NCBI RefSeq assembly: GCF_001422445.1
Contig: NZ_LMNA01000026.1
Span: 1-64,000, forward strand
From: Pseudorhodoferax sp. Leaf274
GTDB taxonomy: Bacteria > Pseudomonadota > Gammaproteobacteria > Burkholderiales > Burkholderiaceae_C
Reading direction: 5' to 3'
DNA length: 64,000 bases
Part shown: positions 8,868 through 46,080 of the stretch, piece after piece
How the letters are laid out: each line of letters begins with the position of its first letter
Position numbering within the stretch: position 1 is the first letter of the stretch
Position numbers and translations under genes: made by a program
Notes under the pieces: generated by a model
The model's input: the letters and a program-made list of their open reading frames with translations, nothing else
Databases searched by the model: none
What the model was told of the DNA's origin: nothing

Positions 8868-9940
8868 GCGCGGGGAGCCAATGCTTCGATCTGGTCGGCG
8901 ACGCGTGCGGCCGCCTGGGGTTTTGCCAATGCGCGCGCCTGGGCCGCCATGGCCTGCAGTGCGTCGCGCGAGAGCCCTGCCAGCAGCTGCGCCAGCCGGC
9001 CCGGGTTGAGTTCGGCCTGCGGCAGGTGCATGCCGGCGCCATGGCCGGCCAGCCACTGTGCGTTGTCGCGCTGGTGCGAGGTGGTGCTCGCGATGAGCGG
9101 CACCAGCACCGCCGCCACGCCGGCCGCGCACAGTTCGCTCACGGTGATGGCGCCGGCGCGGCAGACCACCACGTCGCATTCGGCCAGGGCCTGGGCCATG
9201 TCCTCGATGAAGGGCACGGCCCGGGCGGTGACGCCGGCCTGTGCATAGGCCTGGGCCACGGCCGCGTCGTTGCCCTGGCCGCACTGGTGCAGCACCTGGG
9301 GCCGCTGGGCAGCGTCCATGGCCGCCAGCGCCTGGGGCAGGCATTCGTTGAGCACGCGCGCGCCCAGGCTGCCGCCGACGACCAGCACGCGCAGCGGGCC
9401 GCTGCGGCCGGCGAAGCGTTCGGCAGGCAGGGGCAAGGCCTCGATCTCGCGGCGCACCGGGTTGCCCGTGACCTGCGATTTCTTCACGCGCGCCACGTCC
9501 GGGCCGTCGAAGCCGAAGGCCACGGCGTCGGCCACCGGCAGCAGCGCCTTGTTGCTCATGAGCAGTGCCGCGTCGGCGTTGACGAGGGCCAGCGGCTTGC
9601 CCAGCGCAGCGGCCATCAGGCCGCCCGGGAAGCAGACATAGCCGCCCATGCCCAGCACCACGTCGGCACGGCGCCGGCGCAGGATCTGCAGGCAGGACCA
9701 GAACGCGCCGAGCATGCGCATGCCGCCGGTCAGCGTGTGCACCAGGCCCTTGCCGCGCAGGCCCGAGAAGCCGATGGTGTCCAGCGCGATGCCCGAGGGC
9801 GGCACGAGGCGGTTCTCCATGCCCGTGCGCGTGCCCAGCCAGCTGACGGTCCAGCCGCGCGATTGCAGCTCGCGCGCCACCGCCAGGCCCGGAATCACGT
9901 GCCCGCCCGTTCCCGCCGCCATGACGACCAGATGGCTCAT
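8864..9940 (-). CDS. murG: Lipid II-forming GlcNAc transferase MurG
   Basis: MurG adds GlcNAc to lipid I on the cytoplasmic membrane face to make lipid II. This is a 358-residue GT-B fold glycosyltransferase. The N-terminal glycine loop [13 protein letters not shown] is at residues 8-20, a second loop [13 protein letters not shown] near 187-199 and the donor-site [13 protein letters not shown] near 260-272. The ATG overlaps the stop of a short bridging frame (9937-10017) as ATGA, and GAAGGG lies seven bases upstream inside that segment. Confidence 0.96.
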
Positions 9941-10017
9941 TGAGGCACCCTTCGACCTGCGGCCTGTCCCGCCAGGCGGGAGCGAGCTTGTTTGGGGCGG
10001 CCCGGCACTGCGCTCAT
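9937..10017 (-). CDS. Bridging micro-ORF in a junction repeat (ftsW-murG)
   Basis: A 26-codon frame, beginning [14 protein letters not shown] and ending GRRVPQ, fills the 73-base gap between ftsW and murG. Its ATG overlaps the ftsW stop (ATGA) and its TGA overlaps the murG start (ATGA). GAAGGG sits just ahead of the murG ATG. The MS-x-PGRP-QAR start recurs at other junctions in this window (42005, 44924, 44989), so the segment is one copy of a dispersed repeat and not an ancestral dcw gene. It is probably translated by coupling; whether the peptide does anything is unknown. Confidence 0.5.
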
Positions 10018-11273
10018 AGTCCTCGCCCCCCGTGCATGAGCTGCCGGCTTTCGTAGTCCACGCGCAGCACCACCGCGATGGCCACCACGTTGAGCAGGAT
10101 GGCCGAGCCGCCGAAGCTCATGAGCGGCAGCGTGAGCCCCTTGGTGGGCAGCGCGCCCAGGTTCACGCCCATGTTGATGAAGGCCTGGAAGCCCATCCAC
10201 ACGCCGATGCCCTGGGCCACGAGGCCGGAGAACACGCGGTCCAGCGCGATGGCCTGGCGGCCGATGTGCATGATGCGGCGGATCAGCCAGTAGAACAGCG
10301 CGATCACGCAGACCACGCCGACCAGGCCGAACTCTTCGCCGATCACCGCCAGCAGGAAGTCGGTGTGCGCCTCGGGCAGCCAGTGCAGCTTCTCCACGCT
10401 GCCGCCCAGGCCGACGCCGAAGATCTCGCCGCGGCCGATGGCGATCAGCGAGTGCGAGAGCTGGTAGCCCTTGCCCAGCGCGTGCTTCTCGTCCCAGGGG
10501 TTGAGGTAGGCGAAGATCCGCTCGCGCCGCCACTCGGACGTCAGGATCATGAGGCTGAAGGCCACCAGCAGCACGGCGGCGATCAGGAAGAACATGCGCG
10601 CGTTGACGCCGCCGAGGAACAGGATGCCCATGGCGACGATGGCGATCACCATGAAGGCGCCCATGTCGGGCTCCAGCAGCAGCAGCACGCCGACCAGCGC
10701 GATCGCCACGCCCATGGGCAGCACGGCGCGCCAGAAGTTTTCCTTCACGTCCATCTTGCGGACCATGTAGGCGGCGGCATAGAACACCACCGCCAGCTTG
10801 GCCAGCTCGGACGGCTGGAAGTTCATGATGCCCACCGAGATCCAGCGGCGCGCACCGTTCACGCCCTTGCCGATGAAGGGCACCAGCACCAGCACCAGCA
10901 GCGCGACCGAGAACACGAACAGCCAGCCGGAGTACTTCTCCCAGGTCTGCATGGGCACCTGGAAGGCCAGCAGCGCGAAGACGAAGGCCACGGCGATGGC
11001 GATGGCGTGGCGGATCAGGAAGTGCGTCTGCGTGTAGTTTTTGAAGCGCGGGTTGTCCGGCATCGCGATGGAGGCCGAATACACCATCACCAGGCCCCAG
11101 GCCAGCAGCGCCACGCAGACCCACAGCAGGGCCTGGTCGAAGCCGAGCACGCGCATGGGCGTGGCACGGGTCTGCGCGTAGCCACCCGTGCCCAGGCGCA
11201 CGGGCAGCGCGTCGGCCGCGGCCTGCGGCAGGCCGCGGAACCAGTTGGGCAGGCGCAGCGACGGCAGATTCAT
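10014..11273 (-). CDS. ftsW: Septal peptidoglycan glycosyltransferase FtsW
   Basis: SEDS-family polytopic membrane protein that polymerises lipid II at the septum with FtsI. The 419-residue protein has about ten hydrophobic helices, starting with [20 protein letters not shown] near residue 49. SEDS hallmarks are visible: GARRWISVG near 139-147, FQPSELAKL near 151-159, and the C-terminal [11 protein letters not shown] near 384-394. A hydrophilic N-terminus of about 45 residues precedes the first helix. Its ATG overlaps the murD stop. Confidence 0.96.
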
Positions 11274-13084
11274 GGCGATCCTTCCATGGCGACGCCCGCG
11301 GCGTCGGCCAGCACGCCCACCGCGGCGCGGAAGACCTCGGCGCGGTGCTCGTAGTTGCGGAACATGTCGAAGCTGGCACAGGCCGGCGACATGAGCACGG
11401 CATCGCCCGGCTGGGCGCGCCCGGCGGCCAGGCGCACGGCCTCGTCCATCGCGCCGGCATCGTGCAGCGCCACGCCGGCGTCGGCCAGGGCGGCGCGGAT
11501 CAGCGGCGCGTCGCGGCCGATCAGCACCACCGCGCGCGCGAAGGCGGCCACGGGCGCGGCCAGCGGCGCGAAGTCCTGGCCCTTGCCCTCGCCGCCCAGG
11601 ATCAGCACCACGCGGCGCTCGGCCCCCAGCCCGTTCAGCGCGGCCACGGTGGCGCCCACGTTGGTGCCCTTGCTGTCGTCGAAGTATTCGACGTCCTCGA
11701 CGATGGCGATGGGCTCCACGCGGTGCGGTTCGCCGCGGTACTCGCGCAGGCCGTAGAGCATGGGCGCCAGCGCGCAGCCCGCGGCATTGGCCAGCGCCAG
11801 CGCGGCCAGCGCGTTGGTGGCGTTGTGGCGGCCGCGGATGCGCAGCGCGTCGGCCGGCATCAGGCGCTGCAGCGTCAGCTCCTCGGGTGCCTCGGAGCGG
11901 CGCCGCTTCAGGCCATCACTCTCGCGCGCACGCACCAGCCAGGCCATGCCGTTGACCACCTCCAGGCCCCAGTCGCCCGGGCGCTGCGGCAGCTCGGCGC
12001 CGAAGCTCTGGTAGTCGCGCGGCACGGGCTTGGCCTTGGAGCCCTTGGCGGCCCGGAGGGCGGCGCCGGGCCGCCCCAAGCCGCCCTGCTCCCCTCGGGA
12101 GACGGACCGGGCGGAGCCCGGGCCTGGGGGCTGAGCGTTCTGCAGCAGGTCCATCACCAGCGCGTCGTCGCGGTTGAGCAGCATCAGCGTGTGCGCGCCG
12201 AAGATGCGCGCCTTGGCCTGCACATAGGCGGCCATGCTGCCGTGCCAGTCCAGGTGGTCCTGCGTGAGGTTGAGCACGGTCGCGGCCGTGGGCTCGAACT
12301 GGCTGGAGGCATCGAGCTGGAAGCTGGACAGTTCCAGCACCCAGACCTGGGGCAGGTCGTCGGCCGCGAGGCGTGCGGCCAGCGTGTCCAGCAGCGTGGG
12401 ACCGATGTTGCCGGCCACGGCCACGCTCTTGCCGGCGCGCTCGACCAGCTGGCCCGTCAGCGAGGTCACGGTGGTCTTGCCGTTGGTGCCGGTGATGGCC
12501 AGCACGGCCGGGCGGTAGCCGGTCTCGACGGGCGGCGGCGCGATGGGCGGCAGGCTGGCGTCGTCGTCGTCGGCCGGCACGGGCGCGGCCGGCGGCGGGG
12601 CCGATTCAGAAGGCGCGGTGTCGTCGGACGGCTCGGCGTGGATGGGGTCCGTTGCCTGCGCGGGCTCGGGCTCCTGCTGCGCCGGAGCCTCTTCGGCCTC
12701 GGCCTCGGTTTCGGCCTGGGCTTCGGCGGGTACGTCTGCGTCGCGCAGGTCCTTGATCGCCTGCGCGAACAGGTCGAGCTCGCCGCCGACGAACAGGCCG
12801 ATGGCGCGCGCGGCGTCCAGCACCGGCGCCAGCTGCGCGGGCGACAGGCCCGGCGAGCGGTAGACGGCGCGCACGTCCTGGCCCTCGACCAGCGCGGCGC
12901 CGAAGGCCCCGGCGACGAAGCGCACCTGCGGCAGCTCGGCCTGCAGCTGGGCCAGCTGCGGCGGCGTTTCGCGCGTGTCGGCCACGGTCACGCGTGCGCC
13001 ATGCGCGGCGCACCAACGCGCCATCGCCAGGCCGGACGCACCCAGGCCCAGGATCAGCACGGAGAGGTCTTGCAGGTGCTTCAT
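11270..13084 (-). CDS. murD: UDP-N-acetylmuramoyl-L-alanine-D-glutamate ligase, enlarged
   Basis: Adds D-glutamate to UDP-MurNAc-L-Ala. The ATP loop GTNGKTT is at residues 199-205, the central motif ELSSFQLD near 251-258, [11 protein letters not shown] near 272-282, and the C-terminal SKGTNVGAT and SPACASFD motifs are intact. At 604 residues it is about 160 longer than E. coli MurD (438). Two insertions explain this: residues about 114-189, an acidic Ala/Glu/Pro-rich stretch between the UDP-binding and ATPase domains, and residues about 318-352, which correspond to a dispersed nucleotide repeat read in frame. All catalytic motifs persist, so the enzyme is probably active. ATGA overlaps join it to mraY and ftsW. 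Confidence 0.94.
12029..12135. repeat. Junction-type repeat inserted in frame inside murD
   Basis: The plus strand here reads GGCGCCGGGCCGCCCCAAGC followed by CCTCGGGAG, matching the core of the repeats at gene junctions elsewhere in the window, in inverted orientation relative to murD. It encodes a Gly/Arg/Ala-rich stretch with no homology to MurD, between the central ATPase domain and the rest of the protein. The boundaries are approximate, taken from where MurD-like sequence stops and resumes. Confidence 0.55.
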
Positions 13085-14259
13085 CGAAGTTTCAGCGTGG
13101 ACAGGCCGATGAGGCACAAGAGCATGGTCACGATCCAGAAGCGCACGACGACCTGCGTCTCCTTCCAGCCGCTCTTCTCGAAGTGGTGGTGCAGCGGCGC
13201 CATCTTGAGGATGCGCCGGCCCTGCCCGTACTTCCTCTTGGTGTACTTGAACCAGCTGACCTGGATGATCACGGACAGCGCCTCGACCACGAAGATGCCG
13301 CCCATGATGGCCAGCACGATCTCCTGGCGCACGATCACCGCGATGGTGCCCAGCGCGCCGCCCAGCGCCAGCGCGCCCACGTCGCCCATGAAGACCTGGG
13401 CCGGGTGCGCGTTGAACCACAGGAAGGCCAGGCCCGCACCGGACATGGCCGCGCAGAAGATCATGAGCTCGCCCGCGCCCGGGATGTTGGGCAGCAGCAG
13501 GTACTTGGCGAACACGGCGTTGCCGGTGACGTAGCAAAAGAGGCCCAGCGCCGCGCCCACCAGGATCACCGGCATGATGGCCAGGCCGTCCAGCCCGTCG
13601 GTCAGGTTCACCGCGTTGGAGGCGCCGACGATGACCAGGTAGGTCAGGACCACGAAGCCCAGCACGCCGAGCGGGTAGCTGACTTCCTTGAAGAACGGCA
13701 CCTGCAGGCCGGCCTTGGGCGGCAGGTTCAGGTCGAAGCCGGACTGCACCCAGGCCGTGAACAGCTCGAACACGCGCTGGTTGGAGCTCTCCGAGATCGA
13801 GAACACCAGGTAGACCGCCGCCACCAGGCCGATCAGCGACTGCCACAGGTACTTCTCGCGCGAGCGCATGCCCTCGGGGTCCTTGCGGACCACCTTGCGC
13901 CAGTCGTCGACCCAGCCGATCGCACCGAAGCCGAAGGTGACCAGCATCACGATCCAGACGAAGCGGTTGGACAGGTCGAACCAGAGCAGCGTGGACAGTG
14001 CGATGGACAGGAGGATCAGCACGCCGCCCATGGTCGGCGTGCCGCTCTTGGCCAGGTGCGCCTCGATGCCGTAGCCGCGGATCGGCTGGCCGATCTTGAG
14101 TTCGCGCAGCTTGCGGATCACGACCGGGCCCATGCCGATGCCGATCACCAGTGCCGTCATGGCGGCCATCACGGCGCGGAAGGTGATGTACTGGAACACG
14201 CGCAGGAAGCTCAGTTCCGGCGACAGCGTCTGCAGCCATTGGGCCAGGCTAAGCAGCAT
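13081..14259 (-). CDS. mraY: Phospho-MurNAc-pentapeptide transferase MraY
   Basis: Polytopic inner-membrane enzyme that transfers phospho-MurNAc-pentapeptide to undecaprenyl phosphate, giving lipid I. The 392-residue protein shows family motifs: KSGTPTMGG near residues 70-78, DDWRK near 117-121 (the aspartate pair), [13 protein letters not shown] near 215-227 and the C-terminal [13 protein letters not shown] near 351-363. Length is normal for betaproteobacteria. It overlaps the murF end by 11 bases and the murD start by ATGA. Confidence 0.97.
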
Positions 14260-15628
14260 GGATGCCCTCCTGCTGCAGTGCCCCGACCACGCGCTCCATC
14301 TTCATGAAGCGCGAACCCTTGACCAGCACGCTGGCCAGCTCAGGCTGCAGCGCACGCGCCGCGCCGATCAGCGACTGCACGTCGTCGAAATGCCGCGCAC
14401 CGGCGCCGAAGGCGGCCACCGCGCCAGCGCTCTGCGCACCCAGCGCGAACAGGTGCTCGATGCCGGCCGCGCGCGCCTGGGCGCCGGCCTCGGCGTGGAA
14501 TTGTGGGCCGGCGTCGCCGACCTCGCCCATGTCGCCCAGCACCAGGAGGCGCGGGCCCGGCAACGCGGCCAGCACGGCGATGGCTGCGGCCACGGAATCG
14601 GGGTTGGCGTTGTAGCTGTCGTCCACCAGCGTGCGGCCTGCGGCCAGCGCGAGCGCACGCGAGCGGCCCTTGACCGGCTCGAACGCGGCCAGCCCGGCGG
14701 CGATGGAGGCGATGGGCACGCCCGCCGCCAGCGCGCAGGCCGTGGCGGCCAGCGCGTTCTGCACGTTGTGCCGGCCTGCGATGCGCAGGCGCAACGCGAA
14801 GCCGCCCTGCGGCGTGTGCACGCGCACCTGCCAGGCGCTGTCGGACCAGCGCGGCTCGTCCGCGCGGACCTGCGCATCCGGGGCCAGCCCGAAGGTGATG
14901 ACGCGGCGCGCGCCGGCCATCTCGCGCCACAGCGGCAGGTAGGTGTCGCCGGCGGGCAGCACGGCGGTGCCGGTGGGCGGCAACGCGGCGATCACGCTGC
15001 CGTTCTCGCGCGCCACGGCCTCGATGGTGGCCATGAACTCCATGTGCTCGCGCTGGGCGTTGTTGACCACGGCCACGGTGGGTTGGGCGATGGCGGCCAG
15101 CTGGGCGATCTCGCCCGGGTGGTTCATGCCGAGCTCGACCACGCCCAGCCGGTGGCCGGCGCGCAGGCGCAGCAGCGTGAGCGGCAGGCCGATGTCGTTG
15201 TTGAGGTTGCCCTGGGTCGCGAAGGCGGCATCGCCGGCGGCCGCGCGCAGGATGGCCGCGACCATCTGCGTCACCGTGGTCTTGCCGTTGCTGCCGGTCA
15301 CGGCCACCAGCGGCAGCATGAACTGGGCGCGCCAGCCGCGCGCCAGCTGGCCCAGCGCGGCGATGGTGTCGTCCACCTCGATGCAGGGCAGGCCATGCGC
15401 CGCGAAGCCGCCGCTGGCGCCGCGCAGGCACAGCGCGGCCGTGGCGCCGCAGGCCCTGGCCTGGGCGAGCATGTCGTTGGCATCGAAACGCTCGCCGCGG
15501 ATGGCGACGAACAGGTCGCCCGCGGCCAGCGTGCGCGTGTCGCTGTGCACGCGGGCGCAGCGCACGGCGCCGTCGCCATGCAGCTGGCCGCCGGGAATCC
15601 AGGCCAGGGCCTGGCGCAGGTTCAGCAT
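14249..15628 (-). CDS. murF: UDP-MurNAc-tripeptide D-alanyl-D-alanine ligase
   Basis: Last cytoplasmic Mur ligase, attaching D-Ala-D-Ala. The 459-residue protein carries the ATP loop [12 protein letters not shown] near residues 111-122, [12 protein letters not shown] near 160-171 and the C-terminal [10 protein letters not shown] near 335-344. ATG 15628 overlaps the murE stop by seven bases, which argues for this start, and the stop lies inside mraY. Confidence 0.96.
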
Positions 15629-18887: not shown

Positions 18888-19222
18888 CGCCGGACTCCTG
18901 GACGTTGCGGCGCCGATGCCGCCGATGCGGCGGGCGCGGGCAGCGGGATCAGCACGCCGGTGCTGGCGCTGACGTACTGCGTGATGGCCGGCGTGGTGGT
19001 GCGCATCTGCAGCTGCTCCTTGGCCAGCTTTTCCACGCGCAGCGGCGTGGCCTGGCCCCGGCGCTCGACCTGCAGGCGGTCGAACTCCACGTCGAGCCGG
19101 CGCGCGAGCCGGGTCTCGCGGTCCAGCTGCACCGTGAGGTTGCGCGACTCGTACTGCGTGCGCACGAGGTACATGGCGCTGGCCATGACGGCCAGCAGCA
19201 GGACGAGGTTGAGCCGGGTCAT
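18884..19222 (-). CDS. ftsL: Cell division protein FtsL
   Basis: Small bitopic membrane protein that forms a complex with FtsB and FtsQ. The 112-residue frame starts [20 protein letters not shown], a membrane helix, followed by a heptad-like coiled-coil stretch (about residues 28-70) and an Ala/Pro-rich tail. Start ATG 19222 was chosen over the longer frame because it gives the family N-terminus, has GGAGG five bases upstream, and overlaps the stop of the bridging frame 19219-19320. Confidence 0.92.
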   Translation of the reverse strand: MTRLNLVLLLAVMASAMYLVRTQYESRNLTVQLDRETRLARRLDVEFDRLQVERRGQATPLRVEKLAKEQLQMRTTTPAITQYVSASTGVLIPLPAPAASAASAPQRPGVRR

Positions 19223-19320
19223 AGGCCCTCCACGCTTGTCGCTGTGTTCGCTGCGCAGCCGCCCGAGGGGGTCGCGCTCCGCACGGGGGCGGGCCGGCGG
19301 CAGAACTTCGCGCCGCTCAT
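19219..19320 (-). CDS. Bridging micro-ORF in a junction repeat (rsmH-ftsL)
   Basis: A 33-codon frame, [15 protein letters not shown] to SVEGL, fills the 94-base gap between rsmH and ftsL. Its ATG overlaps the rsmH stop (ATGA) and its TGA overlaps the ftsL start (ATGA); GGAGGG just upstream of ftsL is supplied by this segment. Composition and the CCCCCTCGGGCGG block match the dispersed junction repeats, although this copy is diverged. In most bacteria rsmH and ftsL abut directly, so this looks like an insertion. Peptide function, if any, is unknown. Confidence 0.45.
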
Positions 19321-20258: not shown

Positions 20259-20267
20259 CGCCGGCCC

Positions 20268-20702: not shown

Positions 20703-20747
20703 CGCGCACCACCTTGGGGTTCGTGCGGAGGAAATTGGGCCAAAACA

Positions 20748-20782
20748 GCCCCTTTTCCCCACAAATTTGCACTGATTCCCAC
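20748..20782 (-). promoter_or_regulatory. MraZ operator: four 5-mers at exact 10-bp spacing
   Basis: On the minus strand GTGGG (20782-20778), GTGCA (20772-20768), GTGGG (20762-20758) and GGGGC (20752-20748) recur at exactly 10 bp, upstream of the mraZ start. MraZ proteins are known to bind series of TGGG-type boxes separated by 5 bp. A possible extended -10, TGCTACAGT, lies immediately upstream (about 20784-20792), so MraZ would bind just downstream of or over the start point, consistent with autorepression. Confidence 0.8.
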
Positions 20783-20800
20783 TGTAGCACCAAACGATCA

Positions 20801-20984: not shown

Positions 20985-22343
<1,359 letters not shown>

Positions 22344-28362: not shown

Positions 28363-29289
28363 TCAGCCGCCCGGCTTGCGCCGCGCCCGCGGGTGGGCCG
28401 CATCGTAGGCCCTGGCCAGGTGCTGGAAATCCAGCCGCGTGTAGACCTGGGTGGTGCTGATGTTGGCGTGGCCCAGCAGCTCCTGCACGGCGCGCAGGTC
28501 GCCGCTGGACTGCAGCACATGGCTGGCGAACGAGTGCCGCAGCATGTGCGGATGCACGGGCGTGGCCAGGCCGGCGAGCTGGCTGCGCCGGCGCAGGCGC
28601 TGCCACATCGACTGCGCGGTCAGCCGCGTGCCATGGCGGCCGACGAACAGGGCCGGGTTCAGCGCGGCGCCATCGCCGCGCAGCGCGAGCCAGGCCCGCA
28701 GCGCACTCGCCGCCGAGGCGCCGATCGGCACGCTGCGCCGCTTGCTGCCCTTGCCCAGCACGTGGGCCTCGCCGGCGTCCAGGTCGATCCAGCCGCGCGC
28801 CTGCGGGCCGGCCCGCACGTCCAGCCCGGTCAGTTCGGCCACGCGCAGGCCCGCGCCGTAGAGCAGCTCGACCATGGCCGCGTCGCGCGCTTCCAGCCAG
28901 GGGTCGTCGGCCTCGCTGCTGAACTCGGCCAGCTGCACCGCCTCGTCCACGCCCAGGGCCTTGGGCAGCGGCTTGCCGGACCTGGGTGCGCGCACATCCT
29001 GCACCGGGTTGGCGGCGACCAGGCTCTCGCGGCCCAGCCAGGCGTAAAAGCCGCGCCAGCCCGACAGGATCAGCGCGATGCCGCGCCCGCTGCGGCCGCC
29101 ACTGTGCATCTGGGCCACCCAGCGGCGGATGTGGGCGTTGTGCACGGCCAGCAGGCCCAGCCTGGCCGCATCGGCGTGGGCGCGCAGCTTGGCCAGGTCG
29201 GCCTGGTACAGCGCCAGCGTGCGCGCGGCCAGGCGGCGCTCCACGCGCTGGTAGGCGAGGTAGCGCTCGACCAGCGCGGCATCGTCCAT
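28363..29289 (-). CDS. xerC: Tyrosine recombinase XerC
   Basis: Site-specific recombinase that resolves chromosome dimers at dif with XerD. The 308-residue protein has a SAM-like N-terminal DNA-binding domain and a catalytic domain with Arg149 (GLRVAEL), Lys180 (GKGSKRR), His248 and Arg251 (HPHMLRHSFA), His274 (GHANIS) and the nucleophile Tyr283 (QVYTR). All catalytic residues are present. Location next to DUF484 and dapF is the usual proteobacterial dapF-DUF484-xerC order, so this is the housekeeping XerC and not an integrase of a mobile element. Confidence 0.95.
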   Translation of the reverse strand: MDDAALVERYLAYQRVERRLAARTLALYQADLAKLRAHADAARLGLLAVHNAHIRRWVAQMHSGGRSGRGIALILSGWRGFYAWLGRESLVAANPVQDVRAPRSGKPLPKALGVDEAVQLAEFSSEADDPWLEARDAAMVELLYGAGLRVAELTGLDVRAGPQARGWIDLDAGEAHVLGKGSKRRSVPIGASAASALRAWLALRGDGAALNPALFVGRHGTRLTAQSMWQRLRRRSQLAGLATPVHPHMLRHSFASHVLQSSGDLRAVQELLGHANISTTQVYTRLDFQHLARAYDAAHPRARRKPGG

Positions 29290-29380
29290 GTCAGGGGCGC
29301 CCGGCCGCCCGAAGCCTCCGGCGCGCGCCCTCGGTGGGCAGCGCACCTCGTGCAGCGGGGAAGCGTGGGGCTGGTTGCAT
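29286..29380 (+). repeat. Junction repeat copy between DUF484 and xerC (inverted)
   Basis: Read on the plus strand the segment encodes [15 protein letters not shown]..., the same start as the other junction repeats, so this copy is inverted relative to the genes around it. On the gene strand it still leaves an open frame of 29 codons (29291-29380, MQPAPRF... to ...RAAGRP) that ends one base before the xerC ATG. In many proteobacteria DUF484 and xerC abut, so this 97-bp gap looks like an insertion. Confidence 0.5.
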
Positions 29381-29386
29381 CGCGCG

Positions 29387-30079
29387 CTACTGCAGCCGCG
29401 ACAGCGCGGCGCTCGCGAGTTCGGCGATGCGCTCCAGGAAGTCCGTGCCCATGCCGGACTCGAAGCGCTGCGGATCGGGCGAGGCCAGCACCAGCATGCC
29501 GAACGCCGGCTCGGTGCTGTTGAGCTCGCCCACGCGCAGCGGCATCAGCACCACCGACATGGCCTGGGCCGGCTCGGGCAGCCATTGCACGGCGTCGAAA
29601 CCGGGGTTGACGCCGCAGAACGGCGCCGTCAGCGACGAGGCGAAGCTCATGGCGTCGTCGCTGACACCCTGGGCGAAGCCGTGGCCGGCGTAGTCGCCAG
29701 AGACGCCCCAGACCTTGAGCGCGGCCTGCGGCACGCCGAACTGGCTCTGCACCTCGGCCACGATGCGCTGAGGCAACTCGGCCGGCGCCCGGGTGCGCAG
29801 CAGGCTGCGCGCCCAGCGCTGCAGCTTGTCGGCGATCAGCACGTTCTCGTTGCCGTGGCGCACCATGTCCATGATGCGGTGCTCCAGGCCCTTGATCTTC
29901 TCGCGCAGCATCTCGGCCTGGCGTTCCTGCAGGCTCACGGCGCGGTTGCCGTGCGGGCTGGTCATCTGCACGGCCGTCAGCACCTCGGCATGGCGCTCGA
30001 AGAAGGCCGGCGTGTGGATCAGGAAGTTGGCGATGTCGTCTTCGGTGATCGGGTTGTTGGCGTTCATGGTGTGGTTCAT
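29387..30079 (-). CDS. DUF484 family protein
   Basis: A 230-residue cytoplasmic protein of the DUF484 family, conserved between dapF and xerC in proteobacteria. It starts with a helical region (residues about 10-75, including [15 protein letters not shown] and a coiled stretch), followed by a GAF-like domain to the C-terminus. ATG 30079 overlaps the dapF stop as ATGA; a second ATG four codons further in is possible. The molecular function is not established. Confidence 0.9.
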
Positions 30080-37402: not shown

Positions 37403-37500
37403 GGGTTTCTCCGTCAGATGAACAAGGACGGACGCCTTTTGCAAGCTCCATGCCACGTCTGGCAGCAAAGCCATCGGCACATTGACACCAAAGACAAAAC

Positions 37501-37518
37501 TGGATTGTCGACAATCCA
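37501..37518. promoter_or_regulatory. Perfect 18-bp palindrome, probable GntR operator
   Basis: TGGATTGTCGACAATCCA is a complete palindrome in the divergent gap between livK and the deacetylase gene. GntR regulators of the FCD class bind palindromes of the TTGT-n-ACAA type, and a GntR gene of this class is encoded just downstream (38521-39252). A CATAAT at 37535-37540 may be the -10 of the plus-strand operon. The site could control both directions. Confidence 0.75.
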
Positions 37519-37580
37519 AGGCACAGATAGGCACCATAATTGCTCGGCCTTGCCAGGCGCAACAGAGCGCGCCACGCACC

Positions 37581-39252: not shown

Positions 39253-39259
39253 GAACACC

Positions 39260-39895
39260 ATGGACATCGATTTTTCCGCCATCACCGAATACCAGCGCTA
39301 CAAGCTCATGGCCAGCCTGATCGTGCCGCGGCCGATCGCGCTGATCACCACCGTGAACGCCGACGGCGTGGTCAACGCCGCGCCGTTCAGCATGTTCAAC
39401 ATGCTGGGCGAGGAGCCGCCCATCGTGATGGTCAGCATCAACCGGCTGCAGGACGGTGCGCTCAAGCACACGGCGCAGAACATCGTCGCCAGCAAGGAGT
39501 TCGTGGTGCACATCAGCGACGAGGCGATGGCCCGGCAGATGCACCGCTGCGGCGAGAACTTCGCGGCCGAGGTGAGCGAGCTGGCGGCCGTGGGGCTGAC
39601 GACCGCGCCCTGCAAGGTGGTGCAGCCGCCGCGCATCGTCGAGGCGCCCGTGGCCTTCGAGTGCACGCTGCACGAGCTGCTGGAAACCACCAGCCGGCAG
39701 ATCTTCATCGGCCAGGTGCGCTGGCTGCATGCGCGCGAGGGCTTGATCGACACCGACACCTGGCGCGTACGATTGCAGGATTACTTCCCGGTCGCGCGCT
39801 TCGGTGCCAGCTTCTACGTGAACACGCGCGAGCGCTTCTCGCTGGAGGGCAGTGCCAGCGCGCCGGCCACGACCACACCCATCGATGAAATCTGA
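39260..39895 (+). CDS. Flavin reductase-like protein (split-barrel FMN binding)
   Basis: A 211-residue protein of the flavin reductase/DIM6 family: IVPRPIALITTVNADGVVNA and PFSMFN (about residues 20-47) form the FMN-binding split barrel. Members reduce flavins for a monooxygenase or act as FMN enzymes themselves. No monooxygenase is present nearby. It follows the GntR gene by seven bases. A second paralogue is at 46077-46694. Confidence 0.85.
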   Translation: MDIDFSAITEYQRYKLMASLIVPRPIALITTVNADGVVNAAPFSMFNMLGEEPPIVMVSINRLQDGALKHTAQNIVASKEFVVHISDEAMARQMHRCGENFAAEVSELAAVGLTTAPCKVVQPPRIVEAPVAFECTLHELLETTSRQIFIGQVRWLHAREGLIDTDTWRVRLQDYFPVARFGASFYVNTRERFSLEGSASAPATTTPIDEI

Positions 39896-40604
39896 ATCCG
39901 ATCTTCCCGACGACGACACCCAGGGCGTGCGCCTGGCCAAGCGCGTGGCCGCCCAGGGCGGCTGGTCGCGCCGCGACGCCGAACTGCTGATCGACAACGG
40001 CGTGGTGCGCGTCGACGGCACGGTCGCGCTGTCGCCCCAGCTGCGGGTGCTGCCGGCGCAGCGCGTGGAGATCGAGAAGAACGCCACGCCGCAGCCGGTG
40101 CCCCCGGTCACCGTGGTGCTGCACAAGCCAGCCGGCATGGACATCGACCCCGCCGCGCCGCTGGCCGGCGCACGCCGCAGCGACACCGACCGCTCGGGCC
40201 TGCGGCCGCTGCCCCGGCATCTGCTGGACCAGCACTGCGTGGCCCCGCTCGGCACACGGGACAGCGGCCTGGTGGTGTTCACGCAGGTGCACGGCATCGA
40301 GCGCAAGCTGGTCGAGGACGCCGGCATCCTGGAGCACGAGCTGCAGGTCGAGGTGCAGGGCGAGGTCACGCCCGAGGCGCTGCAGGGCATGCGCCCCGCG
40401 CGCGTGAGCGTCGGCTCGCAGCGCGAAGGTCGCACGGTGCTGCGCTTCGCCATCAAGGGCCCCCAACCGGGCCAGGTCAGCGCCATGTGCGCGCGCGCCG
40501 GGCTGCAGGTCATGGGTGTGCGCCGCATCCGCCTGGGCCGGGTGCCGCTGGCCGGCATGGCGCCGGGCGAATGGCGCTATCTGCTGCCCGAAGAGCGCTT
40601 CTGA
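39885..40604 (+). CDS. RsuA/RluB-type pseudouridine synthase-like protein lacking the catalytic Asp
   Basis: A 239-residue protein with an N-terminal S4 RNA-binding domain (about residues 14-63) and an RsuA-like fold: VVLHKPAGMDID near 78-89, LGTRDSGLVVFTQ near 122-134, and the C-terminal RIRLGRVPLAGMAPGEWR. The segment that should hold the catalytic GRLD aspartate reads PLGTRDSG, where Gly or Thr aligns with the Asp depending on the gap. From memory, homologous proteins in Burkholderiales show the same loss, so this may be a conserved RNA-binding pseudoenzyme. ATG 39885 overlaps the flavin reductase end by 11 bases. Confidence 0.8.
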   Translation: MKSESDLPDDDTQGVRLAKRVAAQGGWSRRDAELLIDNGVVRVDGTVALSPQLRVLPAQRVEIEKNATPQPVPPVTVVLHKPAGMDIDPAAPLAGARRSDTDRSGLRPLPRHLLDQHCVAPLGTRDSGLVVFTQVHGIERKLVEDAGILEHELQVEVQGEVTPEALQGMRPARVSVGSQREGRTVLRFAIKGPQPGQVSAMCARAGLQVMGVRRIRLGRVPLAGMAPGEWRYLLPEERF

Positions 40605-40637
40605 ACCGTCGCCCTCGGGGGCGCGGCCATGTTCGAA

Positions 40638-41031
40638 AAGTGTGAAGCCCGCCGATACGCCGGATTCTGTGCACCGGGGTCGCCCCCGGTGTGACCGCCA
40701 TTCCTCTGGGCCGTCTGTCGCCAGACGGCTCGGTGCTACCTACCCGCCAGCTCTCCTTGCGGAGCCACAAGGTCGCAAGAGGTTGCCCTGCTTGCGTGGC
40801 TGGCCTATTTGGTATTGCTGCGCGTAGAGATTGCCCGTTTCACCCCCGGTGGTCTACCTTGCGGCACTCCCCCGGGACTCGTCTCTGTTGCTCTGATCCT
40901 CACCTCGCGGTGGAGAGCCGTTAGCTCCTACGCTGCCCTGTGCAGTCCGGACGTTCCTCCAGTGCGGCCTTTCGGCCCGACGCAAGCGTCGTCTTTTCAG
41001 ATTGCACCAGCGGCGGCCTGGCGGGCTTCAC
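40638..41031 (-). ncRNA. rnpB: RNase P RNA (class A)
   Basis: The minus strand holds the diagnostic conserved regions. GGAGGAACGTCCGGACT (about 40942-40958) is CR-I, with ACAGAATCCGGCGTAT (about 40655-40670) near the 3' end. AGGGCAACCTC and GGTGAAACGGGCAA also match class A RNase P RNA. The ends pair as the P1 helix: GTGAAGCCCGCC at the 5' end (41031 down) with GGCGGGCTTCAC at the 3' end. The RNA cleaves 5' leaders from tRNA precursors with RnpA. It is encoded opposite to the flanking cysK and pseudouridine-synthase-like genes. Ends are accurate to a few bases. Confidence 0.96.
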
Positions 41032-41038
41032 GGCGGGC

Positions 41039-41044
41039 ATTATC
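41039..41044 (-). promoter_or_regulatory. Probable -10 element of rnpB
   Basis: GATAAT on the minus strand lies seven bases before the predicted RNase P RNA 5' end at about 41031, the correct spacing for a sigma-70 promoter. A good -35 hexamer is not apparent at 16-18 bp upstream. Confidence 0.6.
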
Positions 41045-41090
41045 GCAGTGCGCCAGAATGCCCTTTTTTGCCCAACCCAAGGGAGACGCC

Positions 41091-42008
41091 ATGAAAGCCG
41101 ACAACGTCCTGCAAACCATCGGCAACACGCCGCACATCCGCATCAACCGCCTGTTCGGCGGCCAGGCCCAGGTCTGGGTCAAGTCCGAGCGCAGCAACCC
41201 GGGCGGCTCGATCAAGGACCGCATCGCACTCGCCATGGTCGAGGATGCCGAGAAATCCGGCCAGCTGCAGCCCGGCGGCACCATCGTCGAGCCGACCTCG
41301 GGCAACACCGGCGTGGGCCTGGCCATGGTGGCAGCCGTCAAGGGCTACAAGCTGGTGCTGGTGATGCCCGACTCGATGTCGGTCGAGCGCCGTCGGCTGA
41401 TGCTGGCCTACGGCGCCAGCTTCGAGCTGACCCCGCGCGAGAAGGGCATGAAGGGCTCCATCGCGCGCGCCCAGGAGATCGTGGCCAGCACGCCCGGCGC
41501 CTGGATGCCGCAACAGTTCGAGAACCCGGCCAACGTGGACGTGCACGTGCGCACCACGGCCCAGGAGATCCTGGCCGACTTTCCGGACGGCCTGGACGTG
41601 CTGATCACGGGCGTGGGCACGGGCGGCCACCTGTCGGGCTGCGCGCGCGTGCTCAAGGCCCAATGGCCGCAACTCAAGGTCTTCGCCGTCGAGCCCGTGG
41701 CCTCGCCGGTGATTTCGGGCGGCGCACCCTCGCCGCACCCGATCCAGGGCATCGGTGCCGGCTTCATCCCGAAGAACCTGGACACCAGCCTGCTGGACGG
41801 CGTGATCCAGGTCGACGCAGAGCCCGCGCGCGAGATGGCGCGCCGCTGCGCGCGCGAGGAGGGCCTGCTGGTGGGCATCTCGTCCGGCGCCACGCTGGCG
41901 GCCATCGCGCAGAAGCTGCCCGAACTGCCGGCCGGCAGCCGCGTGCTGGGCTTCAACTACGACACGGGCGAGCGCTACCTGTCGATCGAGGGCTTCCTGC
42001 CCGCATGA
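41091..42008 (+). CDS. cysK: Cysteine synthase (O-acetylserine sulfhydrylase)
   Basis: PLP enzyme that makes cysteine from O-acetylserine and sulfide. The PLP lysine motif NPGGSIKDR is near residues 36-44 (Lys42), the substrate loop PTSGNTG near 67-73 and the phosphate loop [10 protein letters not shown] near 179-188. The 305-residue length and N-terminus [17 protein letters not shown] fit the CysK type; a CysM-like substrate range cannot be ruled out. GGGAG lies six bases upstream of ATG 41091. Its stop overlaps the bridging frame 42005-42091. Confidence 0.92.
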
Positions 42009-42091
42009 GCAACGCGCCGGGCCGCACTGAGCAAGCTCGTCCGCAGGCGCAGCAGCGCGCGGACGATCTGCTGGGCCTGTTCGGGCATTGA
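42005..42091 (+). CDS. Bridging micro-ORF in a junction repeat (cysK downstream)
   Basis: A 28-codon frame, [14 protein letters not shown] to GLFGH, starts in the cysK stop codon (ATGA) and ends three bases before the GTG of the J-domain gene. It shares the MS-x-PGR-QAR start and GCGCCGGGCCGC DNA core with the other junction repeats. The C-terminal half ([10 protein letters not shown]) is unrelated to the others, so the repeat core is only about 50 bases here. Unlike other copies, it does not overlap the next start. Confidence 0.45.
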
Positions 42092-42094
42092 GCC

Positions 42095-43129
42095 GTGGCT
42101 GACCTCGTCACCACCGCCGACCGCGGCCAGCCACCGCAGCTGCTCGAGTTCCACCGCCTGACCGACGCCATCGCCGCGCAGCGCGCGCTGCTGCAGCGCT
42201 GGCAACAGGCCAGCCGTGACTTCCACCAGCAGCAGGCCCAGGCGCTCGCGCCGCTGCTGACCAGCCAGCGCGCCATCGACCTGGACCTGCTGCGGTTCCT
42301 GGACCAGGCGGCCCACGCCGGCGAGCTGGGCCGCACCGATCTGCAGATCCTGCATGCGCTGGTGCGCGACCTGGCGGCCAGCCTGCTGCGCCAGGGCGAC
42401 GAGCCGGAGTTGCGCGCCATCCATGCCCGGCACCAGGACGCCGAAGATGCCGAAGACGCGGACACCGCGGACGACGACCAGGCCGATGCGCCACCGGCCA
42501 CCACCGCGGCGCCCGCGCCCGCCGGCGACGAAGACTGGATGGCGCAGTGGGAGCGCATGGAAGCCGCCCAATCCGACACCGCCCGACAGCGCGAACGCCA
42601 GCGCGCGCAGCACAAGGCCGCCAGCCGGCGCCAGCGCATGACGGCCGCGCCGCAAGCCGAGGACGCGAGCCAGACCGTCCGCGCCGTCTACCGCAAGCTG
42701 GCCAGCGCGCTGCACCCCGACCGCGAGCCCGACGACGCCCAGCGCGCGCGCAAGACCGCACTGATGCAGCGTGTGAACGTGGCCTACGGCGCCGGCAACC
42801 TGCTCGACCTGCTGCAGCTGCAGCTGGAGATCGAGCAGATCGACACGCGCAGCATCGCCGCCATGGGAGAGGTCGCGCTGCGCCGCTACAACGCGGTGCT
42901 GGCCGAGCAGCTGGACGAGCTGCGCCAGGAGACCGCCGACACCGAGCGCGGCTTTCGCACGCAGCTGGGCCTGGGCCACGGCGCCGAGCCGACCGCCACG
43001 CGCATGGCGCGCGCCATCCGCGAGCAGGCGCGCGCGCTGCAGCAGAACATCGCCTACTACCAGTGGGAGCGGGCCGAGCTGGAAGACCCGCGATTCTTCA
43101 AGCAGTGGCTGCGCGAGCAGCGCGGCTGA
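42095..43129 (+). CDS. J-domain-containing protein
   Basis: A 344-residue protein. A C-terminal J-domain-like segment (about residues 193-240) contains YRKLASALHPDRE with the HPD motif at 207-209 that stimulates DnaK. Residues 1-110 are helical and may form coiled coils; residues about 113-145 are acidic and low complexity. No zinc-finger or Gly/Phe region, so not DnaJ itself. GTG 42095 is the only plausible start near the cysK operon end. It probably acts as a specialised Hsp40 co-chaperone; the client is unknown. Confidence 0.78.
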   Translation: MADLVTTADRGQPPQLLEFHRLTDAIAAQRALLQRWQQASRDFHQQQAQALAPLLTSQRAIDLDLLRFLDQAAHAGELGRTDLQILHALVRDLAASLLRQGDEPELRAIHARHQDAEDAEDADTADDDQADAPPATTAAPAPAGDEDWMAQWERMEAAQSDTARQRERQRAQHKAASRRQRMTAAPQAEDASQTVRAVYRKLASALHPDREPDDAQRARKTALMQRVNVAYGAGNLLDLLQLQLEIEQIDTRSIAAMGEVALRRYNAVLAEQLDELRQETADTERGFRTQLGLGHGAEPTATRMARAIREQARALQQNIAYYQWERAELEDPRFFKQWLREQRG

Positions 43130-43244
43130 ACCGGCGCGGCGCCAAACGTACCCGCACGTCGCACGCGCATCGCACAGCGGGGCCGGCCCCGTATCATCGA
43201 CCGCCTCCCCTGCTCCGCCCGATCACCACGGGCCGTGCCACACC

Positions 43245-44927
43245 ATGATCCGCCTCTCCGAAATCAAGCTGCCGCTGGACCATGCCGCGGACGCCCTGCC
43301 CGCTGCCATCGCCGCCAAGCTCGGCCTGCCGCCCGGCGCCATCGCCAGCCACACCGTCTTCAAGCGCAGCTTCGACGCGCGCAAGGCCGAGCTGCTGCGC
43401 GTCTACATCGTCGATGCCGCGCTGGCCGAAGGTCAGGACGAGGCCGCCGTGCTGGCCCGCCTGCAGGGCGACCCGCATGTGTCGGCCACGCCCGACATGG
43501 CCTGGCAGCCGCCCGTGCGGCTCGCGCAGCCGCCCGCGCTGCGCCCCGTGGTCGTGGGCTTTGGCCCGTGCGGCATCTTCGTGGCGCTGGCGCTGGCGCA
43601 GATGGGCCTGAACCCCATCGTGCTGGAGCGCGGCAAGGCCGTGCGCGAGCGCACGCAGGACACCTGGGACCTGTGGCGCAAACGCGAGCTGCATCCAGAA
43701 TCCAACGTGCAGTTCGGCGAGGGCGGCGCCGGCACCTTCTCCGACGGCAAGCTCTACAGCCAGATCAAGGACCCGCGCTTCCTGGGCCGCAAGGTGCTGG
43801 AGGAATTCGTCAAGGCCGGCGCGCCCGAAGAAATCCTGTGGGAGGCGCACCCGCACATCGGCACCTTCCGGCTCGTGAAGATGGTGGAGAGCATGCGCGC
43901 CGACATCATCGCGCTGGGCGGCGAGATCCGCTTCCAGCACAAGGTGGTCGACCTCACGGTGCAGGACGGCCCCGACGGCCGCCAGGTGCGCGGACTCGTG
44001 GTGCTGAACCAGGCCAGCGGTGCCACGTCGGAGCTGCGCGCCGACCACGTGGTCATGGCGCTGGGCCACAGCGCGCGGGACAGCTTCGAGATGCTGCATG
44101 CGCGCGGTGCGCCCATGGAGGCCAAGCCCTTCTCGATCGGCTTTCGCGCCGAGCACCCGCAGAGCCTGGTCGACCGTGCGCGCTGGGGCCGCCACGCCGG
44201 CCACCCGGACCTGGGCGCGGCCGAGTACCGGCTGGTGCACCACGCCAGCAACGGCCGATCGGTCTACAGCTTCTGCATGTGCCCGGGCGGCACCGTGGTC
44301 GCGGCCACGAGCGAACCCGGCCGCGTGGTCACCAACGGCATGAGCCAGTACTCGCGCGCCGAGCGCAACGCCAATTCGGGCATCGTGGTGGGCATCACGC
44401 CGGCGGATTTCCCCACGGAGTACCAGCACATCGACGTTCCCGCATCGGCCCAGGGCCAGCCGCACCCGCTGGCCGGCATCGAGCTGCAACGCCGGCTGGA
44501 ATCGGCGGCCTTCGTGCTGGGCGGCAGCGACTACAGCGCGCCAGGCCAGTTGCTGGGCGACTTCCTCGCCGGCAGGCCGTCCACCCGGTTCGGCGAGGTG
44601 CAGCCCAGCTACAAGCCTGGCGTGCACCTGACCGACCTCGGCGGCGTGCTGCCCGACTACGCCATCGTCGCCATGCGCGAGGCCTTTCCCGCCTTCGCGC
44701 GCAAGATCCCGGGCTACGACCTGGCCGACGCCGTGCTGACCGGCGTGGAGACACGCACCTCGGCGCCCGTGCGCATCGAACGCGACCCCGCCACGCTGCA
44801 ATGCGTGGGCCTGTCCGGCCTGTACCCGGCCGGCGAAGGCGCGGGCTACGCGGGCGGCATCCTGTCGGCCGGCGTGGACGGGCTCAAGGTGGCCGAGGCC
44901 GTGGCCCGCGCACTGGCACCCGCATGA
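43245..44927 (+). CDS. FAD-dependent oxidoreductase, COG2509-like
   Basis: A 560-residue flavoprotein with an N-terminal domain of about 90 residues and an FAD-binding Rossmann motif VVVGFGPCGIFVALALA near 102-118. VLERG near 126-130 binds the FAD ribose and GEGGAGTFSDGKL near 154-166 is a family block. The end, GLYPAGEGAGYAGGI near 524-538, is the conserved FAD C-terminal motif. The family is widespread, described as uncharacterised FAD dehydrogenases; substrate unknown. It is preceded by a 115-bp gap and its stop overlaps a bridging frame. Confidence 0.9.
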   Translation: MIRLSEIKLPLDHAADALPAAIAAKLGLPPGAIASHTVFKRSFDARKAELLRVYIVDAALAEGQDEAAVLARLQGDPHVSATPDMAWQPPVRLAQPPALRPVVVGFGPCGIFVALALAQMGLNPIVLERGKAVRERTQDTWDLWRKRELHPESNVQFGEGGAGTFSDGKLYSQIKDPRFLGRKVLEEFVKAGAPEEILWEAHPHIGTFRLVKMVESMRADIIALGGEIRFQHKVVDLTVQDGPDGRQVRGLVVLNQASGATSELRADHVVMALGHSARDSFEMLHARGAPMEAKPFSIGFRAEHPQSLVDRARWGRHAGHPDLGAAEYRLVHHASNGRSVYSFCMCPGGTVVAATSEPGRVVTNGMSQYSRAERNANSGIVVGITPADFPTEYQHIDVPASAQGQPHPLAGIELQRRLESAAFVLGGSDYSAPGQLLGDFLAGRPSTRFGEVQPSYKPGVHLTDLGGVLPDYAIVAMREAFPAFARKIPGYDLADAVLTGVETRTSAPVRIERDPATLQCVGLSGLYPAGEGAGYAGGILSAGVDGLKVAEAVARALAPA

Positions 44928-44992
44928 GCACCGCCGGGCCGCCCCAAGGTGCTCGGGGCACCGCAGCGCGCAGCGCGAAGCAACTCCAATGA
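44924..44992 (+). CDS. Bridging micro-ORF in a junction repeat (flavoprotein-hydrolase)
   Basis: A 22-codon frame, MSTAGPPQGARGTAARS to KQLQ, begins in the upstream stop codon (ATGA) and ends in the start codon of the next gene (ATGA). It shares GCCGGGCCGCCCCAAG and the ending CGCGAAGCA...CCAATGAG with the ftsW-murG copy. It is directly followed by a second, in-frame copy that forms the N-terminus of the hydrolase at 44989, a tandem pair. Confidence 0.5.
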   Translation: MSTAGPPQGARGTAARSAKQLQ

Positions 44993-46080
44993 GCGCCGCG
45001 CCGGGCCGCCCCGGGCAGGCGCGCGCCGCAGGCGAAGCCGACGGTACGCCAGTGCGCCTGGGCGCGCCGCGCGGCACCGACGGCCGTTTTCGCAACACCG
45101 AGCCGTTCGAGCCGCGCGGCCTGGCCGACGTGCTGCGCTGGCAGTGGCAGGCCCGGCGCGAACAGCAGGCCGCCGCGCAGCCCACGCCCACCCAGCCCGC
45201 CGACCTCGACTTCATCGCGCGCAACCGCGGCGGTGCACTCGCGCCGGCCGCGACCTGGCTGGGCCACGCCACCGTGCTCGCCCAGTTCGGCGGCGTGAAC
45301 CTGCTGACCGACCCGCACTGCAGCCACCGCGCCTCGCCGTTCACGTTCAGCGGGCCGCAGCGCGCGCAGCCGCCGGCCATCGCGCCGCAGGACATGCCGC
45401 CCATCGACCTGGTGCTGGTCTCGCACAACCACTACGACCACCTCGACGTTGCCACCGTGCAGGCGCTCGCGCGCCAGGCCGGCGGCCCGCCGCTGTTCGT
45501 GGTGCCGCTGGGCCTGAAGGCCTGGTTCGCGCGCCGCGGCATCGCCGACGTGGTGGAGCTGGACTGGTGGCAGACCGCGCAGCTGCGCGGCGTGGAGGTC
45601 ACGCTGACGCCCGTGCGCCACTGGTCCTCGCGCACGCTGGGCGACCGCATGGCCTCGCTGTGGGGCGGCTTCGCGGTGCTGGCGCCCGACCTGCACCTGT
45701 ACTTCGGTGGCGACACGGGCTACTCGCCGAACAACTTCATCGACACGCGCGCGCATTTCGCCGAACGCCAGAGCACGGCGAGCGGCGGTGGTTTCGACCT
45801 CGCGCTGCTGCCCATCGGCGCCTACGAGCCGCGCTGGTTCATGGCGCCGCAGCACGTGAACCCCGAGGAGTCGGTGCGCATCCACCAGGAACTCGGGGCC
45901 AAGCGCTCGCTGGGCATCCACTGGGGCACCTTCAAGCTGACCAACGAGCCGCTGGACGAACCGCCGCGCAAGCTGGCCGAGATGCTGCAGGCCGCGGGCC
46001 TGACGCCGCAGGACTTCTGCGTCACCGCCATCGGCGAAACCCTGCGGCTGCCGCCGCGCATTCCCAAGGCCATCCCATGA
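44989..46080 (+). CDS. Metallo-beta-lactamase-fold hydrolase, NAPE-PLD/UlaG-like
   Basis: A 363-residue cytoplasmic protein with the metal motif HNHYDHLD at residues 146-153, DPHCSHRASPF near 108-118, FGGDTGYSP near 239-247 and GIHWGTF near 305-311, the arrangement seen in N-acyl-phosphatidylethanolamine phospholipase D-like and UlaG-like proteins. The substrate is unknown. The first about 25 residues (MSAAPGRPGQARAAGE...) are not family sequence; they match the junction repeat frame and appear to have been fused by repeat insertion. The family-like sequence starts near RLGAPRGTDGRFRN. ATG 44989 is ATGA-coupled to the bridging frame; the stop is ATGA-coupled to the next gene. Confidence 0.88.
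   Translation: MSAAPGRPGQARAAGEADGTPVRLGAPRGTDGRFRNTEPFEPRGLADVLRWQWQARREQQAAAQPTPTQPADLDFIARNRGGALAPAATWLGHATVLAQFGGVNLLTDPHCSHRASPFTFSGPQRAQPPAIAPQDMPPIDLVLVSHNHYDHLDVATVQALARQAGGPPLFVVPLGLKAWFARRGIADVVELDWWQTAQLRGVEVTLTPVRHWSSRTLGDRMASLWGGFAVLAPDLHLYFGGDTGYSPNNFIDTRAHFAERQSTASGGGFDLALLPIGAYEPRWFMAPQHVNPEESVRIHQELGAKRSLGIHWGTFKLTNEPLDEPPRKLAEMLQAAGLTPQDFCVTAIGETLRLPPRIPKAIP

Follow-up and report, generated by a model that had tools for sequence, protein, structure and literature searches.

Unit A, a GC-rich dispersed repeat at start codons within operons of Pseudorhodoferax sp. Leaf274

Copies of unit A in the window and in the genome

The stretch of DNA analysed here, hereafter the window, comprises the first 64,000 nt of contig NZ_LMNA01000026.1 of Pseudorhodoferax sp. 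Leaf274, a 342-kb contig in a genome of 6.74 Mb, and contains several copies of a short repeat, here termed unit A, at junctions between co-directional genes. An initial annotation had grouped five segments at gene junctions into one repeat, and had read it as a mini-element that keeps the translational coupling of neighbouring genes intact. Four of the five were recovered as unit A by a covariance model, together with a further copy at 12053-12140 (E-values of 6.5e-8 to 0.035), while the fifth, 42005-42091, is matched neither by this model nor by a profile, and may be a decayed copy. In the following list, where murG, ftsW, ftsL, and rsmH were identified by Pfam matches of neighbours, mini-ORF denotes a short open reading frame (ORF) and d the distance between its two start boxes.

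9937..10017, minus strand: forward unit A between ftsW (10014-11273) and murG (8864-9940); mini-ORF of 26 aa, ATGA to ATGA, d = 77
19219..19320, minus strand: decayed forward unit A between rsmH and ftsL; mini-ORF of 33 aa, ATGA to ATGA, d = 98; model E-value 0.035
29291..29380, minus strand: mini-ORF (29 aa) of a reverse unit A between a DUF484 gene (29387-30079) and an xerC-like gene (28363-29289)
44924..44992, plus strand: short forward unit A between the gene of a FAD-dependent protein (43245-44927) and a metallo-beta-lactamase-fold gene (44989-46080); mini-ORF of 22 aa, ATGA to ATGA, d = 65
44989..45030 (right edge approximate), plus strand: second, partial unit A core (core at 45000-45012), opening the metallo-beta-lactamase-fold gene
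12053..12140, plus strand: unit A within murD, antisense to murD; in-frame insertion of 26 codons relative to the loci L031 and L032
42005..42091, plus strand: open mini-ORF of 28 aa between a PALP-family gene (41091-42008) and gene 42095-43129

The three forward copies at 9937-10017, 19219-19320, and 44924-44992 are as first described, in that all are open and their distances leave remainder 2 on division by three, and in that GAAGGG or GGAGGG stands ahead of the next ATG in the first two. The segment reported as an inverted copy, 29286-29380, is indeed a reverse-oriented unit A, and its mini-ORF, likewise open, terminates with TGA, followed by C and then by the ATG of the xerC-like gene. The partial core at 44989..45030 appears to form an N-terminal extension of the metallo-beta-lactamase-fold gene. 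The frame at 42005..42091 stops 3 nt before the next GTG, that of a gene with a DnaJ-domain match below cut-off. The nearest relatives of the window are L031 and L032, the latter from Pseudorhodoferax sp. Leaf265; the FtsW of Leaf265 and that of a strain filed as Variovorax boronicumulans DE0202 are both 97% identical to that of the host. The ftsW-murG unit is absent from L031 and L032, and the rsmH-ftsL junction of L032 also carries unit A, a clear copy (E 6e-12) that is the counterpart of the weakest covariance match in the window (19217-19310, E 0.035).

Copies of unit A are approximately 60-100 nt long and occur singly or in tandem, with steps of, for instance, 84, 77, or 60 nt. The 13-nt core named in the initial annotation occurs 68 times in the host genome as against once for its reversed control, and with up to one mismatch it is found 7 times in the window, where 2.2 matches are expected. 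Among 29 relatives, the exact core was found in 16 of 17 from the same genus or family, the single miss being a genome that is 65% complete, and in 5 of 12 genomes from other families, with 1 to 4 copies each and with the reversed control equally frequent in some. The covariance model, built from 27 copies, gave at least 108 genome matches at E <= 0.1 among 150 first-look candidates that were scored. A profile search of 84 stretches around model or core matches, plus the window, returned 102 hits, which fall into 84 arrays; the catalogue is perhaps incomplete, model scoring having covered 150 candidates. With a two-unit array as query no phage record matched, and 6 of 72,556 plasmid records did, from Variovorax, Rhodoferax, Acidovorax, and Diaphorobacter, all of which we take to be Comamonadaceae. 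In a search of the window against Rfam at the gathering threshold, RNase P alone was matched.

Positions of the arrays and their empty sites

Seventy-one of the 84 arrays lie between co-directional genes, 10 within ORFs (3 of them weak matches, E 0.01 to 0.3), 2 between convergent genes, and 1 between divergent genes, with genes called by a simple codon-usage gene caller whose start calls are a source of error. Orientation is about equally divided among the co-directional arrays (38 forward, 33 reverse). When the unit is excised in silico, a gap of 20 nt or less is left in 63 of the 71 co-directional arrays. Of the 42,279 noncoding bases that unit-free junctions contribute to the same stretches, such tight gaps account for 648, a rough ratio, as each stretch was centred on a copy and the ends of the units are known only approximately. 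Convergent and divergent spaces, by comparison, make up 17,989 of the same 42,279 bases and hold only 3 of the 84 arrays. Selection for tolerance alone does not account for this distribution, because these are the spaces where insertions are expected to be best tolerated.

From the 56 eligible arrays a random sample of sites was taken (16 reverse, 10 forward), and the sequence obtained by joining the two flanks of each was searched for in five relatives of the genus. Empty orthologues were found for all 16 reverse and 7 of the 10 forward sites, 23 of 26 in total; for the other 3 forward sites no orthologue was found among the loci inspected. On manual inspection, 22 of the 23 sites with an empty orthologue place the beginning of the unit at the downstream gene's start codon, the exception being L162, where the unit follows the stop codon, 5' of the start. 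Eighteen of these 22 units are flanked by start codons at either end (GTG at one and ATG at the other in L116 and L164), and in the remaining four (L114, L119, L166, and L179) the far box has disappeared or changed, all four belonging to the read-through class described below. For instance, the empty site of L133 reads TAAACTGCCGGCATGcaac and the filled one TAAACTGCCGGCATG-unit-ATGcaac; at L178 the empty site is gaaATGACCCAG and the filled one gaaATGA-unit-ATGACCCAG. The comparisons at L118, L127, and L135 are less clean. Similarly, the blastn alignment of the L031 locus to the window breaks exactly at a doubled ATGA, where L031 has a unit between mraY and murD (distance 89, remainder 2) and both the window and L032 are empty. 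The insertions at L112, L116, L127, L133, and L162 are common to other species, and others were found in the host genome alone among those compared. At L263 (G001:C24) a different insert of 188 nt occupies the place where the host genome has one of the L192 units.

Direct gene overlaps had been taken as the usual state in relatives, and this holds for the ftsW-murG (tight in 44 of 76 loci) and rsmH-ftsL junctions (48 of 62). At 29286 the five empty relatives have approximately 5-16 nt between stop and start. The ATGA overlap is a sub-case of the target, the downstream start codon being entered even where stop and start lie apart.

Predicted continuity of translation across the arrays

In 68 of the 71 co-directional arrays translation is continuous through the insertion: 53 contain a coupled mini-ORF, defined as one with its start near the upstream stop and its stop beside the downstream start, 14 are read through into the downstream gene, 1 forms a chain, and 3 fail. 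Addition of one nucleotide in silico (mean of 4 random insertions over the 71 arrays) left 7 coupled, 37 read through, and 27 with neither; with two nucleotides the numbers were 10, 15, and 46. Unit-free gaps of 40-130 nt (n = 94) gave 18 coupled, 15 read through, and 61 with neither, and Fisher tests of arrays against these gaps gave p = 6.5e-13 for coupling and p = 3.4e-17 for continuity. The pattern noted by the initial annotation at a few junctions is real across the host genome, and stronger than had been stated.

Agreement between the two ends was also assessed by pairing the start nearest the upstream stop with the stop nearest the downstream start, ignoring frame. Of the 55 arrays that could be tested in this way, the two ends agree in frame in 43 (reverse 26 of 32, forward 17 of 23; p = 1.2e-11 against one third), although related copies are not independent; with distinct geometries counted once, 36 of 47 are in frame (p = 1.6e-9). 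A third test, in agreement with the other two, took the 35 arrays flanked by matching stop/start boxes, and the frame is closed in 30 of them. Box distances track the type of box, with 62, 65, 77, 83, and 86 among those for ATGA and 91 for TGACATG (4 arrays). The remainder of 2 that had been put forward as a rule holds for ATGA boxes, but TGACATG boxes need remainder 1 and fusions remainder 0, so that the value 2 is one instance of a more general rule, closure of the frame. Single-unit mini-ORFs are approximately 21 to 33 codons long.

The unit had also been credited with its own start, stop, and ribosome-binding site. The bases at the recreated start of the 33 reverse copies are TGANATG in 13, ATGA in 10, TGATG in 5, and other in 5, and because TGAN directly precedes the start in those 13, the stop is often supplied by the unit. 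A Shine-Dalgarno-like end was observed only among forward copies, and the start is either a repeated host start box or an ATG borne by the unit, the two being inseparable here.

Proposed origin of the pattern and relation to known systems

We consider it likely that unit A is a GC-rich repeat of the Comamonadaceae, probably mobile without an enzyme of its own, that enters start codons and is kept where translation continues. Movement, aiming at start codons, and use of the mini-ORFs by ribosomes are what we infer from the sequences. The unit, in either orientation, would arrive at a start codon, mostly that of a gene close behind its operon neighbour, and would usually leave a start codon on both of its sides. 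A ribosome finishing the upstream gene could then reinitiate at the first start box and translate the unit, opening the hairpin, as a mini-ORF of approximately 20-35 codons; after terminating at a codon in contact with the second box, it could reinitiate once more, now for the downstream gene. Alternatively, a unit may persist by being read in frame as an N-terminal extension of that gene. The coupling-preserving mini-element of the initial annotation is partly supported, the genome-wide excess that it had proposed as a check being present, and its pattern beyond the genus is only partly confirmed.

A number of observations weigh against entry at start codons followed by retention of continuous frames. 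No mobilising enzyme was identified, and the movement is one that was never observed. The repeated ATG is explicable by a target-site duplication or by an ATG carried on the unit, and the similarity of the two boxes is modestly above chance in reverse copies (5.58 versus 4.72, reached in 0 of 300 shuffles) and absent in forward copies. An earlier stop interrupts 5 of the 43 in-frame pairs and 2 of the 30 box-closed arrays, and unit-free gaps themselves show some excess of coupling (18 of 94, versus 6 and 9 after shifts). Read-through is easily obtained in GC-rich DNA, as the 37 of 71 after the +1 shift indicate, so that it is the coupled class that is informative. RNA folding of whole units does not exceed that of shuffles, the lowest z-score of six units being -0.65. 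In G008, a genome of a third genus, 10 of 19 arrays are co-directional and only 4 of these 10 continuous, with 3 coupled versus 2 and 1 after shifts, and 8 of the 19 were called inside ORFs. Furthermore, with genes placed by the gene caller in 80 loci of the dcw cluster, 16 of 30 units are continuous and 12 coupled, versus approximately 8 and 9 after shifts, and with genes placed by homology the reverse dcw copies show no excess (5 of 10 continuous; 5 coupled versus 6 and 2).

Outside the host genome the picture is thus mixed. In G010, from another genus, 17 of 24 arrays are co-directional and 14 of the 17 continuous, with 12 coupled versus 1 and 3 after shifts, and the forward dcw copies with homology-placed genes are continuous in 14 of 16 cases (9 coupled versus 2 and 6). 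The five failures among the reverse dcw copies all represent one site, the murF-mraY junction of five Polaromonas loci. The reverse unit at that site (L061, L065, L067, L084, and L085, at approximately 6.8 kb, or 5.2 kb in L084) leaves the frame unclosed, and mraY has AGGAGG ahead of its start codon, suggestive of independent initiation.

The strongest alternative dispenses with aiming: any DNA would land anywhere, purifying selection would keep the copies that preserve coupling, and the units would be nothing special. We hold this to be possible rather than probable. In its favour, of the 54 inserts of 45-300 nt at eight dcw junctions that are normally tight and overlapping, 52 are continuous (42 coupled, 9 read through, 1 chain, and 2 with neither), these being inserts of any kind, unit A included, many unmatched by the model, and counted with no shift control. 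Part of the effect is therefore selection on any insert at cell-division junctions. The coupling excess of unit-free gaps in the host genome points the same way. Among dcw inserts unmatched by the unit A model, with genes placed by homology, 63 of 160 are coupled versus 35 and 54 after shifts. At other dcw junctions continuity is frequently lost (ftsA-ftsZ 36 of 64, murF-mraY 8 of 8), as we would expect if the constraint were limited to normally coupled junctions. Landing at random is harder to reconcile with the scarcity of arrays in convergent and divergent spaces, where insertion is expected to be harmless, and with the start-codon position of the unit in 22 of 23 sites.

Other inserts were also encountered at the ftsW-murG junction. 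Thirteen loci (L035, L036, L038, L049, L057, L058, L071, L072, L077, L087, L089, L094, and L096) have an insert unrelated to unit A, of the TGTTTCGCCAAAA type, with units of 84-91 nt, single or in tandem, whose terminal part duplicates the local ftsW 3' end, with ATGA; 12 of the 13 are coupled and 1 is read through. Family B (TTTGTTTCRCCAAAACAA), found in Acidovorax-type loci, was considered as a second dispersed family and rejected, its exact pattern occurring in none of 60 genomes of the window's family (one per genus, the host included, with carrier genera perhaps missing). A looser form was limited to 4 of the 80 loci, immediately downstream of ftsW in each, and the units contain repeats of the 3' end of ftsW; Family B is treated as a local tandem element.

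A second alternative, to which we assign a low probability, is that the units are useful regulatory elements, hairpin attenuators or stabilisers of mRNA resembling repetitive extragenic palindromic (REP) sequences, with frame closure as a by-product of compact operons. The hairpin has a constant loop, GCCsGGCCGCCCsAA, flanked by arms that vary between copies yet remain complementary: the mean longest stem is 4.72 versus 2.65 for shuffled pairs in the 95 of 102 hits with a recognisable core. In 26 copies picked by hand, one of them mis-copied, 91.9% of cells are paired versus 56.5% when shuffled and 26-47% in slid versions, and two of five pairing measures (both-side changes and further pair types) are not clearly above shuffles. 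This conserved complementarity would suit a regulatory role, as would a location between co-directional genes, which is typical of REPs (PMC3733652). Against it, both orientations occur, whole units fold no better than shuffles, and frame closure across types of box is not something that it predicts; any regulation would also be recent, because at 23 of the 26 sites sampled the unit is missing from one or more sister species.

The arms also suggest, tentatively, a version of the start-codon-aimed mobile element in which the inner arm would pair with the start of the entered gene or derive from it by copying. Were this so, and we think it rather unlikely, target choice, repeated box, and frame closure would be built into the insertion reaction and owe nothing to selection. 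In several reverse copies (L116, L129, and L187) the inner arm is complementary into or beyond the host start codon, which target pairing, copying, or later selection might each explain. The TGAC-ended copies compared, whose arms are not in the empty site, count against arm pairing as the sole route. An inverted arm derived from the target was rejected as a general rule, as the arms are absent from the empty site in L031 and in the TGAC-type copies compared.

Mobilisation as REP sequences by the REP-associated tyrosine transposase (RAYT) of the family, a Y1_Tnp protein (PF01797), is improbable. Each of 12 searched genomes of the window's family has one PF01797 match, and unit A adjoins the gene in the host genome and in G004, but in only these 2 of 15 neighbourhoods and on one side only; 4 of 8 genomes from other families also have a match. 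Gene order around the gene is apparently conserved across six genomes of the genus, and the adjoining junction is tight and free of units in G001, G002, G003, and G005. Units never stand on both sides of the gene in these neighbourhoods, and the case for RAYT as the mobiliser is weak. A repeated ATG or ATGA also fits such a transposase poorly, the family being said to make no larger target duplications (PMC2817692). At L126 (2812-3501) the Y1_Tnp gene is single-copy and unit A adjoins it. That the mini-ORFs represent genuine small genes under selection for the peptides is very improbable, despite their open frames and the peptides that forward copies have in common: forward and reverse peptides are unrelated, single-unit lengths range from approximately 21 to 33 codons, and many sites are empty in relatives.

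Insertions should be poorly tolerated in tightly packed operons, and here insertion at a coupled start is the rule for a whole repeat family. The before-and-after pairs of sister species offer natural tests of how far operons depend on termination-reinitiation, and could likewise show if mobile elements are able to target start codons. Unit A may also underlie some annotated N-terminal extensions and small ORFs in the family.

Unit A shares single features with several known kinds of repeat, those nearest to it being REPs, miniature inverted-repeat transposable elements, and Rickettsia palindromic elements. Like Rickettsia palindromic elements, described as small palindromic repeats kept in coding sequence with the frame open (PMC10969869, PMC3733652), it occurs as an in-frame insertion within an ORF, namely the 26 codons in murD, the sole such case compared with an unfilled relative. 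The likeness is one of description, not of sequence comparison. Most unit A copies differ in lying at intergenic start codons, as separate mini-ORFs whose stop touches the next start. With REPs, bacterial interspersed mosaic elements (BIMEs), and REPINs unit A has in common that it is short, hairpin-forming, and dispersed, single or in tandem, between co-directional genes. The passages available of PMC3733652 add that REP termini can supply stop codons and that inserts occur at the N-termini of ORFs, and contain nothing on aiming at start codons or closure of mini-ORFs. Unit A differs from REPs in its length of 60-100 nt, its placement at start codons, its frame closure, and the absence of a two-sided REPtron, no unit flanking the gene on both sides in the 15 PF01797 neighbourhoods. 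The constant GTAG or CGTC tag at the foot of the 20-40 nt REP hairpin was not seen by eye in alignment A1, in which GTGG occurs near the right end only.

Miniature inverted-repeat transposable elements (MITEs) such as ERIC/RU, BOX, RUP, and Nezha are likewise short, enzyme-less repeats, some with ORFs or in-frame fusions (PMC2759123, PMC3049150). Unit A differs in being GC-rich and in that its repeated box is the start codon itself. Its conserved left part is GCCGGGCCGCCCC and its right end GCGTGGGGGCC, and no terminal inverted repeats were seen by eye in alignment A1, no dedicated search having been made; both variable complementary arms lie near one end. The literature covered, as titles and abstract openings with preprints outside it, yielded no description of these repeats, and none of six taxon names sought was found in the part of PMC6006769 available. 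Within these sources, no known kind was found to combine location at start codons with frame closure in both orientations. A parallel at the boxes themselves is coupling by termination-reinitiation at ATGA or TGATG overlaps, whose stop-start boxes are identical to those of unit A (PMC6728339); the difference is that unit A, once inserted, turns what was a single box into a pair enclosing a mini-ORF.

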